DNA of 6,178 bases. Source: Candidatus Rokuibacteriota bacterium. Its GTDB lineage: Bacteria > Methylomirabilota > Methylomirabilia > Rokubacteriales > JACPHL01. The stretch is from NCBI GenBank assembly GCA_016188625.1, contig JACPHL010000026.1, forward strand, positions 1 through 6,178. Direction: 5' to 3'. The notes beneath the pieces are model-generated. The model did no database searches and had not been told where the DNA came from. It saw nothing but the letters and a program-made list of their open reading frames with translations. The position numbers and the translations under genes are program-made. Shown here one piece after another: positions 1 through 6,178 of the stretch. Position 1 is the stretch's first letter; every line of letters begins with the position of its first letter.

Positions 1-32
1 ACACTCTTTCCCTAACACTGCTCTTCCGATCT
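1..32 (+). other. Illumina adapter remnant (sequencing artefact)
   Basis: The first 14 bases and bases 20-32 (GCTCTTCCGATCT) are identical to the two ends of the Illumina TruSeq Read 1 adapter. The five bases between them (15-19) replace six adapter bases, so the copy is slightly corrupted, as an error-bearing consensus would be. This is not genomic DNA. The biological sequence starts at about base 33, and the window's left edge is a true contig end. Confidence 0.95.
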
Positions 33-105: not shown

Positions 106-912
106 ATGCGCGTCCCCGTCGTCGTCAAGGTCGGGCTCTTCGCGCTGGCGGTGATGGGGATCTATACCTACTACGCCAACTCCATCCCCCAGATCCAGTC
201 GGCCCTGCCCGAGGAGATCTCCCTCGAGGCGGAGACCGTCACGCCGGAGCAGCTGGTCCGGGTGGGGGAGGAGCTCTTCAAGGGGAAGGGGACGTGCGAG
301 GTCTGCCACCGGATCGGCCAGGTGGGCGCCCGGGCGCCCGATCTGGCCGGGATCGGGGGGCGGGCCGGGACCCGCCGGCCGGGCGTGAGCCCCACGGCCT
401 ACCTCGTGGAGTCGCTCCTTCAGCCGGGCGCCTACGTGGTGGAGGGCTTCCCGAACATCATGCCCCGGGTGGACCGCCCCCCCATCGGGCTCAACCGGTC
501 CGAGCTCTGGGCGGTCGTGGCCTTCCTCGAGTCCCTGGGGGGCGAGGTGCGGGCGAGGCTGGACGACATCCCGAAGACGGCCGGGGTGCCGGCCGGCGAG
601 GCCCCCGTAGCCGAGCTGAAACTCCCGGGGGACCCCGAGGCGGGCAAGGCCATCTTCATGGGGAAGGGCGGGTGCGTCGCCTGCCACAAGGCCGGCCCCC
701 TCGGCGCCTCCCCCGTGGGCCCCGATCTCTCCGAGATCGCCAAGATCCAGACCCCCGAGTACATCATGGCCAAGATCCTGAACCCCGCCGCCATGGGGAC
801 GGTGGCGGGCTACCCGGCCGGCGTGATGCCGCCGACCTTGGGGCAGACCCTGACCGCCAAGGAGTACGTGGACCTGGTCTCATTCCTCCTGACCCTGAAG
901 GGCGGCGCATGA
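106..912 (+). CDS. Membrane-anchored diheme cytochrome c
   Basis: 268 aa. A short hydrophobic N-terminal segment (about residues 5-24) looks like an uncleaved signal anchor, leaving the rest outside the cytoplasm. Two class I cytochrome c domains follow, with heme sites CEVCH (Cys64, Cys67, His68) and CVACH (Cys190, Cys193, His194). Met119-Pro and Met241-Pro are the likely sixth ligands of the first and second hemes. The frame stays open back to a TTG at 43, but that extension would translate two hairpins into low-complexity residues. ATG 106, directly before the anchor, is therefore preferred, although its nearest SD lies across a hairpin. The stop overlaps the next start (ATGA). Likely role: electron carrier, perhaps the cytochrome c subunit of a quinol:cytochrome c reductase whose other genes lie upstream. 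That role is inferred from the gene neighbourhood. Confidence 0.9.
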   Translation: MRVPVVVKVGLFALAVMGIYTYYANSIPQIQSALPEEISLEAETVTPEQLVRVGEELFKGKGTCEVCHRIGQVGARAPDLAGIGGRAGTRRPGVSPTAYLVESLLQPGAYVVEGFPNIMPRVDRPPIGLNRSELWAVVAFLESLGGEVRARLDDIPKTAGVPAGEAPVAELKLPGDPEAGKAIFMGKGGCVACHKAGPLGASPVGPDLSEIAKIQTPEYIMAKILNPAAMGTVAGYPAGVMPPTLGQTLTAKEYVDLVSFLLTLKGGA

Positions 913-3209
913 AACGCCTCCTGGGGTCGAGATTCCTCCAGGCGATCCTGGTCCTCGTCGTCACCTTCGTGATCTTCCGCTTCGGGATCCAGCCCCCGGC
1001 GCCGTGGAGCGTGGTCACGCTCTACATGGCCATCGTCCTCCTCTCGGTCCTGGTGTGGGTCTCCGCGGACTCCGATTCCTGGCGGGCGTTCCTCGCCCCC
1101 ATCCGGGCGACCCTCGTGGAGGAGCGCCGGCGCCCGCTCCTCTACGCCCTGCTGGGGCTCCTCCCCCTCGGGGTCGGCTACTACGCCTACCTCCAGGCGG
1201 CGCCGAGGACCGAGGCGCCGGTCGAGCTCCGGGTGATCCACCCCGCGCCTCCGTCCTCCATCACCTTCCGGGGCAAGACCCTCGACATCCAGGGCCTCGA
1301 GAACCCCCTCCGGAAGGACGCGGCCACGCTCGAGCAGCACGTGCGCGAGGGGGGCACGATCTACGTCAGGAACTGCGTCTACTGCCACGGCGACAACCTG
1401 GACGGCCAGGGCCACTTCGCCCACGGCTTCAGCCCGCCCCCGGCGAACCTCGCCGATCCCGGGACCATCGCCATGCTCCAGGAGTCGTACGTCTTCTGGC
1501 GGATCGCCAAGGGCGGGCCGGGGCTCCCCAAGGAATCGACCCCGTGGAACTCCGCCATGCCCGCCTGGGAGGATCGGCTCAGCGAGGAGGAGATCTGGAA
1601 GGTCGTCCTCTACCTCTACGCGGCCACCGGCCAGGAGCCCCGCCGCTGGGAGCACGCCGGGGGGCCGGGTCCGGCGGTGGCCTCGGGCGGCGGGCGGCCC
1701 CCGGGGAGGACCCTCCCCGGTCCGGCCGCGGCCGAGGCCCAGCAGGCGGGGGATGTCGCGCTGGGGCGGCGGGTCTACGAGCGGAAGTGCGCCTACTGCC
1801 ACGGCCTCGAGGGGAAGGGGGACGGCCCGGCCGCCGAGCTCCTGCACCCCAAGCCCCGCGACTTCACCCGCGGTCTCTACAAGATCCGCTCCACCCCCTC
1901 GGGCCAGGTGCCGACCGATCGGGACCTCTTCGAGGTGATCACCAGGGGGATGCCCGGGACCTCGATGCCGGCCTGGCCGATGCTCCACGAGAGGGAGCGC
2001 TGGGCCCTGGTCGCCTACATGAAGACCCTCTCCGATCGTTTCCAGGGGGAGCCGCCGAAACCCGTGGCGTTCCCCAAGCAGATCCCCGTCTCGGAGGCCT
2101 CCATCGCCCGGGGCAAGGAGATGTACGAGGCGATCGAGTGCAACAAGTGCCACGGCGACGCCGGCCGCGCCGACGGGCCCTCCGCCCCCGAGCTGGAGGA
2201 TGACTGGGGGCACCCGATCAAGCCGGCGAACCTGACCCAGCCCTGGACCTTCCGGGGCGGGCCCAGGCGGGAGGACATCGTCAGGCGCCTGGCCACAGGC
2301 CTCATGGGCACGCCGATGCCCACCTTCGGGGAGACCGTCCAGGACTATAAGGAGTACAAGAAGGGCGAGTCGGAGGAGAAGCAGGACCCCAAGGTCTGGG
2401 CCGAGTGGAAGGACGCCAACCTCTGGGACCTGGCCAACTACGTCCGCTCCCTCGGCCCGGAGCGGCCGAACTGGGCGACGTTCCTGGTCGTGAGGGGGGT
2501 CGAGGGTGAGATCCCCCTGGACCCGACCGCCGAGTTCTGGGAGCGGCAGCCGGCCGCGAACATCCCCCTGGTCGGCCAGGTCATCCAGGACCCCCGGGAG
2601 TTCGCCCCGACCGTCGCCCAGGTCTCGGTGCGGGCCGTCTACACCTCGGAGGAGGTCGCCTTCCACCTCGCCTGGGACGACCCGACCCCCTCCAAGCCGG
2701 ACCCGGCCAAGAAGGTCTTCGCCGACGCCGTTGCCATCCAGCTCCCGGTCAAGCTGGAGCCGACCGAGCGCCCCTATTTCCTGATGGGGGACGGCGCCAG
2801 GCCCGTCTACCTCCTGACCTGGCGCTCCGACGGGGGGGTGGGCGAGGCCAACGTGACGGGGCTCGGGAAGCTGACCCCCCAGCGCGGCGAGGCGGTCCAG
2901 GCCAGGGGCCAGGTGGCCTACGCGGACGGCCGGTACCGGCTGGTGATCAAGCGGCCCCTCGAGACCGGGGACGCCAACGATTTCGCCTTCCCCGCCCGGG
3001 AGTTCTTCCCCGTCGCCTTCTTCGCCTGGGATGGGTCCAGCGGCGAGCAGGGGTCGAAAGGCTCGATCTCCTCGTGGTATTATATTCGTGTAGAGGCCCC
3101 CCCCTCCCGGCGTCAGTTCGTCATCCCCCCACTGGTCGTGCTGCTGGCGGTGGTCGCCGAGGTCCTGGCGGTCCGGTGGGCCCGGCGTCAGGGGGCGGGG
3201 AGCCGCTAA
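909..3209 (+). CDS. Membrane triheme cytochrome c with C-terminal ethylbenzene-dehydrogenase-like heme b domain
   Basis: 766 aa. Three N-terminal hydrophobic helices (about 10-28, 34-53, 77-96) are followed by three cytochrome c domains: CVYCH (156-160) with Met217, CAYCH (294-298) with Met353, and CNKCH (411-415) with Met470 as likely axial ligands. A Gly/Pro/Ala-rich linker (about 250-280) separates the first two. Residues about 525-728 resemble the EB_dh (ethylbenzene dehydrogenase gamma, NxrC-like) heme b fold, with FLMGDG and RPVYLLTWRSDG motifs. Met626 and Lys681 are candidate heme b ligands by analogy with the Met/Lys pair of EbdC. A last helix (about 737-756) ends in basic residues. 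ATG 909 overlaps the previous stop by 4 bp, implying translational coupling. The open frame continues upstream only as an overlap artefact. Likely role: multi-centre electron conduit at the membrane. Donor and acceptor are unknown. Confidence 0.88.
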   Translation: MKRLLGSRFLQAILVLVVTFVIFRFGIQPPAPWSVVTLYMAIVLLSVLVWVSADSDSWRAFLAPIRATLVEERRRPLLYALLGLLPLGVGYYAYLQAAPRTEAPVELRVIHPAPPSSITFRGKTLDIQGLENPLRKDAATLEQHVREGGTIYVRNCVYCHGDNLDGQGHFAHGFSPPPANLADPGTIAMLQESYVFWRIAKGGPGLPKESTPWNSAMPAWEDRLSEEEIWKVVLYLYAATGQEPRRWEHAGGPGPAVASGGGRPPGRTLPGPAAAEAQQAGDVALGRRVYERKCAYCHGLEGKGDGPAAELLHPKPRDFTRGLYKIRSTPSGQVPTDRDLFEVITRGMPGTSMPAWPMLHERERWALVAYMKTLSDRFQGEPPKPVAFPKQIPVSEASIARGKEMYEAIECNKCHGDAGRADGPSAPELEDDWGHPIKPANLTQPWTFRGGPRREDIVRRLATGLMGTPMPTFGETVQDYKEYKKGESEEKQDPKVWAEWKDANLWDLANYVRSLGPERPNWATFLVVRGVEGEIPLDPTAEFWERQPAANIPLVGQVIQDPREFAPTVAQVSVRAVYTSEEVAFHLAWDDPTPSKPDPAKKVFADAVAIQLPVKLEPTERPYFLMGDGARPVYLLTWRSDGGVGEANVTGLGKLTPQRGEAVQARGQVAYADGRYRLVIKRPLETGDANDFAFPAREFFPVAFFAWDGSSGEQGSKGSISSWYYIRVEAPPSRRQFVIPPLVVLLAVVAEVLAVRWARRQGAGSR
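3054..3083 (+). promoter_or_regulatory. Candidate internal promoter for the cupredoxin gene
   Basis: Inside the last part of the multiheme gene, TCGAAA (3054-3059, 4/6 to TTGACA) and TATTAT (3078-3083, 5/6 to TATAAT) are 18 bp apart. The -10 element falls in five consecutive codons ending in A or T (TAT TAT ATT CGT GTA, 3078-3092), very unlike the rest of this gene. It would give the cupredoxin a leader of about 145 nt. The motif is seen; promoter activity is inferred. Confidence 0.35.
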
Positions 3210-3947: not shown

Positions 3948-4143
3948 CCCGGTGCGGCCCCCGGGAGGCGGCGGTCCCGAGCGGAACGTTAAGCGGAGCG
4001 GCGCGGGTCCCCGTCGTGAGCGAGCCGGGTGGGGAAGCCGACAGGCGAGCGGAAGACAAAGAGGAGGGGCCCCGCCCGGCGAGCCACAGACGGGTGCGCC
4101 GCGGAGCGTGTGGAGCGAGGGGCCGACGCCTCCAGCGGGGCGG
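3948..4143. other. Gene-free stretch between convergent genes
   Basis: This 196-bp region lies between the cupredoxin (+) and the small membrane protein (-). It is extremely GC-rich, and open frames through it have no recognisable protein. Short dyads occur (CCCGG 3948-3952 with CCGGG 3961-3965; palindrome GGGGCCCC 4066-4073), but none is followed by a T-run on either strand. I see no intrinsic terminator where two converging transcripts should end, so termination may depend on Rho. Confidence 0.5.
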
Positions 4144-4335
4144 CTAGCCTATGAACCGCTTCAGGTTCTTGAGGTAGTAGGCCAGGAGGCCCGAGACGAG
4201 CAGCGAGATCGCGGCGATGACGAGGGCCCGCACCTCGCCGGTGGCGCGGTAGTCGAGGACCTCCCGGATCGAGAAGACGAGACCGAAGACAATGGCCGTC
4301 CCGATCAGGAGCCTGTGGGCCGCGATGAGCCGCAT
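4144..4335 (-). CDS. Small two-helix membrane protein of unknown function
   Basis: 63 aa from ATG 4335 to TAG 4144. I do not recognise a named family. It has a short basic N-terminus (MRLIAAHR), helix 1 (about 8-22), a polar loop with REVLDYRATGEVR (about 23-35), helix 2 (about 37-54) and a basic end, LKNLKRFIG. Both ends are basic, so both probably face the cytoplasm. Codons end almost always in G or C like the neighbours, which supports a real gene. The frame stays open upstream to 4452, but that part is non-hydrophobic and overlaps the coxB promoter, so the internal ATG is preferred. No good SD precedes it. It is transcribed away from coxB and towards the cupredoxin. A link to oxidase assembly is possible only by position. 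Confidence 0.6.
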   Translation of the reverse strand: MRLIAAHRLLIGTAIVFGLVFSIREVLDYRATGEVRALVIAAISLLVSGLLAYYLKNLKRFIG

Positions 4336-4534: not shown

Positions 4535-4555
4535 ATGGGTAGACCGTCATGTTGA
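4535..4555 (+). CDS. Possible six-codon leader ORF overlapping the coxB start
   Basis: ATG 4535 follows the SD-like AAGGTGGTGAG (4520-4530) at sensible spacing and encodes MGRPSC before TGA 4553-4555. It overlaps coxB ATG 4549 in a different frame. CoxB itself has only a weak SD (near 4538-4543), so reading of this mini-ORF could deliver ribosomes to coxB by termination-reinitiation. It may equally be chance. Confidence 0.2.
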   Translation: MGRPSC

Positions 4556-5208
4556 GGTGGCTGCCGGAGAACGTCTCCACCTACGGGCAGGAGATCGACT
4601 TCCTGTTCTATCTCATCTACTACATCACGGGAGGGATCTTCGTCCTGGTGGCCGCGGCGATGATCGTCTTCCTGGTGCGGTACCGGCACCGGGAGGGCCG
4701 GCGGGCCACCTACACCCACGGGAACACCACCCTGGAGATCGTCTGGACGATCGTCCCGGCCCTGATCCTGGTGGTGCTGACCCTGCTGAGCGTCCCCACC
4801 TGGAGCCGGATCAAAAGCCACGTGCCCCAGACCGATCTCCAGATCCGGGTGACCGCCAAGCAGTTCAACTGGGAGGTCACCTACCCCGGGCCCGACGGCC
4901 AGTTCGGGACCGCCGACGACCTCGAGCTGGAGAACGAGGTCCACGTCCCGGTGGGCAAGCCCGTCCGGGTGATCCTCGCCTCCAGGGACGTCATCCACAG
5001 CTTCTTCGTGCCCCAGCTCCGGTTCAAGCAGGACGCCGTCCCCGGCCGGGATATCATCGAGTGGTTCGAGGTGACCAAGCCGGGCCGGTACGAGATCCCC
5101 TGCGCCGAGCTGTGCGGGTTCGGGCACTCCGGGATGAAGGGGTGGCTCTACGCCCACCCCCCCGAGGAGTACGAACAGTGGGTCCGGGAGCGCTGGCCCT
5201 CGTCCTGA
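4549..5208 (+). CDS. coxB: Cytochrome c oxidase subunit II (CuA subunit)
   Basis: 219 aa. It accepts electrons from a periplasmic donor at the binuclear CuA site and passes them to subunit I. Two N-terminal transmembrane helices (about 16-44 and 63-83) precede a periplasmic cupredoxin domain. All CuA ligands are present: His150 in DVIHSFF, then Cys185, Glu187, Cys189, His193 and Met196 in CAELCGFGHSGM. QFNWEVTYPG (105-114) carries the conserved aromatic segment (Trp108) associated with electron entry. An insert, GPDGQFGTADD (114-124), is rich in Asp and Gly and might bind a cation. There is no fused cytochrome c domain, so this is not a caa3-type subunit and an external donor is needed. ATG 4549 places PENVSTYG at the N-terminus as expected. 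coxA follows after a 65-bp gap, in the usual order. Confidence 0.96.
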   Translation: MLRWLPENVSTYGQEIDFLFYLIYYITGGIFVLVAAAMIVFLVRYRHREGRRATYTHGNTTLEIVWTIVPALILVVLTLLSVPTWSRIKSHVPQTDLQIRVTAKQFNWEVTYPGPDGQFGTADDLELENEVHVPVGKPVRVILASRDVIHSFFVPQLRFKQDAVPGRDIIEWFEVTKPGRYEIPCAELCGFGHSGMKGWLYAHPPEEYEQWVRERWPSS

Positions 5209-5255: not shown

Positions 5256-5261
5256 AAGGAG
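5256..5261 (+). promoter_or_regulatory. Ribosome binding site of the original coxA start
   Basis: AAGGAG lies 12 nt before ATG 5274, with a second purine run (GGGGAG, 5266-5271) between them. No SD precedes ATG 5305. This supports 5274 as the native coxA start, although that ATG is not in frame with the main coxA reading frame. Confidence 0.55.
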
Positions 5262-5273
5262 AGACGGGGAGCG

Positions 5274-5312
5274 ATGGCTAACACGGCAGCGACGGCCATG
5301 ACGCATGGTCAT
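5274..5312 (+). pseudogene. coxA: Detached N-terminal fragment of coxA (out of frame)
   Basis: From ATG 5274 the frame reads MANTAATAMTHGH, which looks like the polar, His-containing N-terminus usual for cox subunit I. It then enters nonsense because the conserved coxA sequence continues in another frame from 5308. Expected residues between this start and GGVLALLIRW, including the DHK-x-IG region and the first half of helix I, are missing. The simplest explanation is a deletion of 3n+2 bases near 5304-5316, either real or made by assembly. Confidence 0.55.
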
Positions 5313-6178
5313 CGGGGGAGTCCTGGCCCTGCTCATCCGCTGGCAGCTGGCCTGGCCCGAGACGCCGGTGCCCGGGTTCCGGTGGGTCCCCGAGCCGTAC
5401 ATGTTCGGGGGGATCATCCCGCCCGAGACCTACAACATGCTCTTCACCATGCACGCCACCCTGATGATCTTCTTCGTGATCATGCCGATCCTGGTGGGGG
5501 CCTTCGGGAACTTCCTGATCCCGCTCATGGTCGGGGCCCGGGACATGGCCTTCCCCCGGCTGAACATGCTCTCCTTCTGGCTGGGGGCCGTGGCGGGGGC
5601 CGTGATGCTGGCCGGGTTCTTCGTCCCCGGTGGTCACGCGGCCTCTGGCTGGACCGCCTACGCCACGCTCTCGGCCAAAGGGGTGTACACCGGGGTGGAC
5701 TGGGGGCAGAACCTCTGGCTGATCAGCCTCATCATCCTCTCCGCCTCCTCGATGATGGGCGCCATCAACTACATCACCACCGTGGTCAACATGCGGGCCC
5801 CGGGGATGACCTTCTTCCGGATGCCCCTGGTCATCTGGTCGCTCTTCATCACCGCGATCCTGGCGCTCCTGGCCCTCCCGATCCTCGCCTCGGCCTCGGC
5901 CATGCTCCTGTTCGACCGGACCCTGGGGACCCACTGGTTCCTCCCCGAGGGGGGCGGGGACCCGCTCCTCTGGCAGCACCTCTTCTGGTTCTTCGGCCAC
6001 CCGGAGGTCTACATCCTGATCCTCCCGGCCATGGGGATCGCCTCGGACGTGCTCTCGACCTTCTCGCGGAAGCCCATCTTCGGCTACCGCGCCATGGTCT
6101 ACTCCATGCTGGCCATCTGCTTCCTGTCCTGGATCGTGTACGGCCACCACATGTTCATCAGCGGGATGAACCCGACCA
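5305..6178 (+). CDS. coxA: Cytochrome c oxidase subunit I, 5' damaged and 3' cut by the window edge
   Basis: 291 codons are readable from ATG 5305; a TGA at 5299-5301 closes the frame just upstream. This catalytic subunit reduces O2 to water at heme a3-CuB and pumps protons. Visible residues (numbered from 5305) are Arg12 in LLIRWQLAWP, the low-spin heme a ligand His50 in LFTMHATLM, and a D-channel entrance GN...ARDMAFPRLN. The active-site motif WFFGHPEVY follows, with CuB ligand His232, Glu234 and Tyr236, then CuB ligands His281 and His282 in YGHHMF. The Glu in GHPEVY and the D-channel residues indicate a family A (A1-type) oxidase. The heme ligands of helix X and the K-channel Lys lie beyond the edge. 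ATG 5305 is probably not the native start: it starts midway through helix I, lacks an SD, and follows a better start at 5274 in another frame. Domain identity is certain; the 5' end is not. Confidence 0.9.
   Translation, partial: MVIGGVLALLIRWQLAWPETPVPGFRWVPEPYMFGGIIPPETYNMLFTMHATLMIFFVIMPILVGAFGNFLIPLMVGARDMAFPRLNMLSFWLGAVAGAVMLAGFFVPGGHAASGWTAYATLSAKGVYTGVDWGQNLWLISLIILSASSMMGAINYITTVVNMRAPGMTFFRMPLVIWSLFITAILALLALPILASASAMLLFDRTLGTHWFLPEGGGDPLLWQHLFWFFGHPEVYILILPAMGIASDVLSTFSRKPIFGYRAMVYSMLAICFLSWIVYGHHMFISGMNPT

Follow-up and report, generated by a model that had tools for sequence, protein, structure and literature searches.

The break at the start of the cytochrome c oxidase subunit I gene (coxA) described here is very probably a local assembly or scaffolding error, the gene itself being intact in the living bacterium. 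The window, i.e. the whole stretch of DNA that was analysed, spans all 6178 bases of contig C70 and belongs to a draft metagenome-assembled genome bin of 2.60 Mb, which comprises 344 contigs, is 84 % complete and has a GC content of around 70 %. An Rfam search of the window gave no matches, and its features are the following:

1..32, no strand: remnant of a degraded Illumina TruSeq universal adapter at the end of the contig, by alignment to the adapter
909-3209: protein of 766 residues, encoded upstream of coxBA, that combines an ethylbenzene dehydrogenase-type heme domain with three cytochrome c stretches
in the window: cytochrome c-like gene
in the window: gene for a carboxypeptidase-regulatory-like protein
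4549..5208, + strand: intact coxB, cytochrome c oxidase subunit II (PF00116, E 2.2e-18; PF02790, E 3.7e-13)
5256..5271, + strand: Shine-Dalgarno-like AAGGAG (5256-5261) and GGGGAG (5266-5271) ahead of the coxA start, from sequence reading
5274..5304, + strand: coxA 5' fragment, MANTAATAMT plus one base, matching the N-terminus of relatives
5304..5313, + strand: junction with around 95-110 nt gone (101 by G033 and G037), from the start-to-MVIGG distance in comparison with relatives
5305..6178, + strand: coxA body, cytochrome c oxidase subunit I from the middle of helix I to the contig end, where it is truncated (PF00115, E 2.9e-89, profile positions 15-269 of 436)

An earlier note on this DNA had proposed that a start with a ribosome-binding site at 5274 gives a typical subunit I N-terminus and that the conserved protein then resumes in a different frame, and both observations hold. 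The ATG at 5274, preceded by the two Shine-Dalgarno-like motifs, opens MANTAATAMTHGH, a typical CoxA N-terminus, and its frame continues into HRGSPGPAHPL..., a non-oxidase sequence, while CoxA picks up one frame over from the ATG at 5305 with MVIGGVLALLIRWQLAWPETPVPGF... (MVIGGVLALLIRW). The COX1 profile match covers 291 residues of this second frame. The breakpoint itself lies within ATGGTCATC (5305-5313) and could not be placed more finely than that. From the start to the methionine of MVIGG we counted 31 nt in the window versus 126-138 nt in the relatives, or 141 nt at one relative locus that has two possible starts. Therefore, around 95-110 nt are missing, a length of 3n+2 in every comparison, in agreement with the 3n+2 loss and the 70-110 bp that had been estimated from the window alone; against the two closest relatives, G033 and G037 (loci L004 and L005), the loss amounts to 101 nt. 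The lost part spans HHELGFVRTYIFSTDHKMIARQFLFLGLFM, i.e. around 33 residues comprising the pre-helix stretch, the DHK motif and the first half of helix I. The DHK segment and half of helix I had already been reported as absent, and both are indeed gone, with the refinement that the HHELGFVRTYIFST stretch before the DHK motif has been lost as well.

The comparison covered about 29 loci from within the order, together with the nearest among the named genomes, all from outside the bin's own family, and every one of these relatives has an uninterrupted coxA N-terminus of the type ...HHELGFVRTYIFSTDHKMIARQFLFLGLFMMVIGGLLA..., including ‘Candidatus Methylomirabilis sp.’ MAG-BB-18, which is among the nearest named genomes (81 %) and carries the full N-terminus. 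A complete first membrane helix that carries the DHK motif and is in frame with the start is thus absent from the window and present in all relatives, and the short 5' end that the earlier note had named as evidence against a misassembly was seen in none of the relatives examined. In contrast to the CoxA of relatives, to which the coxA body is 73-84 % identical, the copy in the window has lost around 33 residues, has a broken frame and runs off the contig at its 3' end. We attribute the absent first-helix and DHK segment to assembly. A programmed frameshift or another form of recoding that restores the frame is scarcely conceivable: the overlapping frames are all that speaks for it, and a frameshift would be unable to supply the 33 or so residues that are present in all relatives.

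Apart from its 5' end, the gene has the characteristics of cytochrome c oxidase subunit I (CoxA, PF00115) of the heme-copper oxidase superfamily, i.e. coxB lies directly upstream and the MHATLMIFF (helix II) and WQHLFWFFGHPEVY motifs are found here likewise. The 5305 frame contains TMHATLMIFF and LWQHLFWFFGHPEVYILILP (WxHxFWxxGHPEVY motif), which, following general knowledge of the family, we take to be the helix II heme ligand region and the region of Cu-B and the cross-linked Tyr, respectively. The multiheme protein encoded at 909-3209 is possibly the electron donor for the oxidase.

From ATG 5305 to the contig end, the frame shows no stop and no further damage, and the dN/dS of the remaining coxA is around 0.3 against both L004 and L005, the same as for coxB. 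Both observations fit a working coxA, and the substitution pattern shows purifying selection on the rest of the gene, although a very recent loss would be invisible at such divergence. This bears on the other branch of the earlier proposal, namely that the oxidase copy would be inactive or would start from an internal ATG, neither part of which finds support in our data. The ATG at 5305 is in the correct frame, which is open to the contig end, so that a shortened but working subunit I might start there. However, this ATG corresponds to the methionine that is conserved in helix I (within FMMVIGG in relatives) and lacks a ribosome-binding site, which makes an internal start very improbable; in addition, the product would miss half of the first membrane helix, and 31 nt upstream the proper start is retained together with its ribosome-binding site.

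An inactive coxA would be expected if a real and recent deletion of around 100 bp had occurred by slippage or short-homology recombination in the strain or in a fraction of the population, which we consider unlikely. In its favour, the HGH found in the N-terminus of relatives L017, L021 and L022 suggests that the left side of the junction ATGGTCATC may once have read CATGGTCA(T/C), which would give 7-8 shared bases. Furthermore, such a loss could be tolerated, since the bin carries another complete oxidase subunit I on contig C247. On the other hand, the remaining coxA is otherwise undamaged with a dN/dS near 0.3, no relative has a comparable loss, and essential single genes of the bin are broken in a similar style. 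The more specific idea of a lineage whose coxA was recently inactivated by a real deletion and which has shifted to other heme-copper oxidases appears quite improbable.

The bin contains further errors of the same kind as the one postulated for coxA, i.e. frame breaks, N gaps, a duplicated overlap and a chimeric contig. Mid-gene frame switches on the same strand and without a stop were surveyed by means of a coding-frame hidden Markov model trained on the window's own genes, and 108 contigs of the bin (861 kb, 740 kb coding) were compared with 321 kb (282 kb coding) of G033 and G037. The bin yielded 24 such events (3.24 per 100 kb of coding sequence) versus three in the control (1.06 per 100 kb; one-sided p=0.037), a modest excess; the approach is heuristic and the control small. 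About half of the 24 events were compared with family profiles.

Essential genes are among those broken. In alaS, of which a sole copy was found in the bin (L195, contig C274, near 5165), the match to TIGR00344 is split at 619/637 with a change of frame, and the distance between NEKVRETL and GEKYG is 10 nt versus 63 nt in relatives, i.e. 53 nt are lost, again 3n+2. Moreover, ispE is broken after position 181 of 294, ffh is interrupted at a gap of 25 Ns, a copper ATPase is without one stretch, lpd skips from 331 to 360, and cox3 skips from 104 to 129 with a break near 3632 of contig C122. On contig C270, 8 Ns separate two ends that both read AGCGCGCTCGAGATCCT, a 17-base overlap, and a stretch LVAGILRRR-ETQQ is duplicated in the bin with one difference between the copies. 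At the high-coordinate end of C122 (L118, 7053-7690), parts of two different oxidase subunit I genes are fused in frame, probably through a chimeric join. Identity to the coxA of relatives is no higher than 63 % in the first part and 78-86 % in the second. This second fragment matches the C-terminal part of the relatives' coxA and is likely the remainder of the coxA in the window, with around 41 codons left unassembled between the two contigs.

Frame breaks were also seen in one relative, where two of them, near 8217 and 11364 of contig C7 of G033 (L204), fall in neighbouring genes with the look of heterodisulfide reductase-type subunits; either errors or recoding may lie behind them.

Chen and co-authors (PMC7111523) describe local assembly errors, as well as runs of N where the flanks in fact overlap, as frequent in metagenome scaffolds built from short reads, and the bin shares both the mid-gene breaks and the Ns between overlapping flanks with the errors described there. 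Considering that no relative is short, that mid-gene breaks occur across the bin, that essential genes are hit, that there are scaffolding faults and that adapter remains at the start of the window, an assembly fault is the reading that we favour for coxA, one of the two options that the earlier note had left open. Accepting it, two pieces of coxA would have been joined directly in the draft assembly, with around 101 nt carrying the DHK motif and the first half of helix I dropped and the frame shifted as a result. The join may have arisen while short reads of this GC-rich (around 70 %) genome were assembled or scaffolded, for instance through an under-estimated gap size or through the bridging of a short shared stretch. 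The simplest account would be that scaffolding, in a genome of 70 % GC, closed a gap that had been taken to be smaller than it is. It is also conceivable that similar short stretches collapsed, in which case ATGGTCAT would formerly have stood on both sides and its left copy would have been lost. Perfect short homology as a general cause of the breaks was not borne out, the alaS junction showing little visible homology.

The sequence at 1-32 was identified by alignment to the TruSeq universal adapter, with 31 of 33 adapter letters matching and one base inserted. The exact adapter core CTCTTCCGATCT occurs as a single copy across the bin, on the contig of the window only, which rules out adapter sequence as a widespread cause of breaks.

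The window also contains two repeats. The one at 33-99 measures around 67 nt, includes two palindromes (GCGCCGGC..GCCGGCGC and GGGGGGCGGAGCCCCCC) and occurs in 42 near-full copies across 0.86 Mb of the bin and in nine across 0.32 Mb of the relatives. The other, an interspersed repeat of around 190 nt, lies between genes at 3956-4145; near-full copies number 23 over 0.86 Mb of the bin and none over 0.32 Mb of the two relatives. It folds over its full length into a single imperfect hairpin (z -4.7) and resembles a palindromic or MITE-like element. Eight of its 33 matches touch contig ends, and the repeat contributes to the fragmenting of the assembly. It may be a real feature, and a more interesting one than the coxA break.

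Since the damage appears to extend even to alaS, ffh and ispE, neither the gene models of this bin nor any claims of gene loss or pseudogenes made from it are trustworthy without reads. Concerning a known and ordinary gene, the coxA break reveals no new biology and matters as a quality warning alone.
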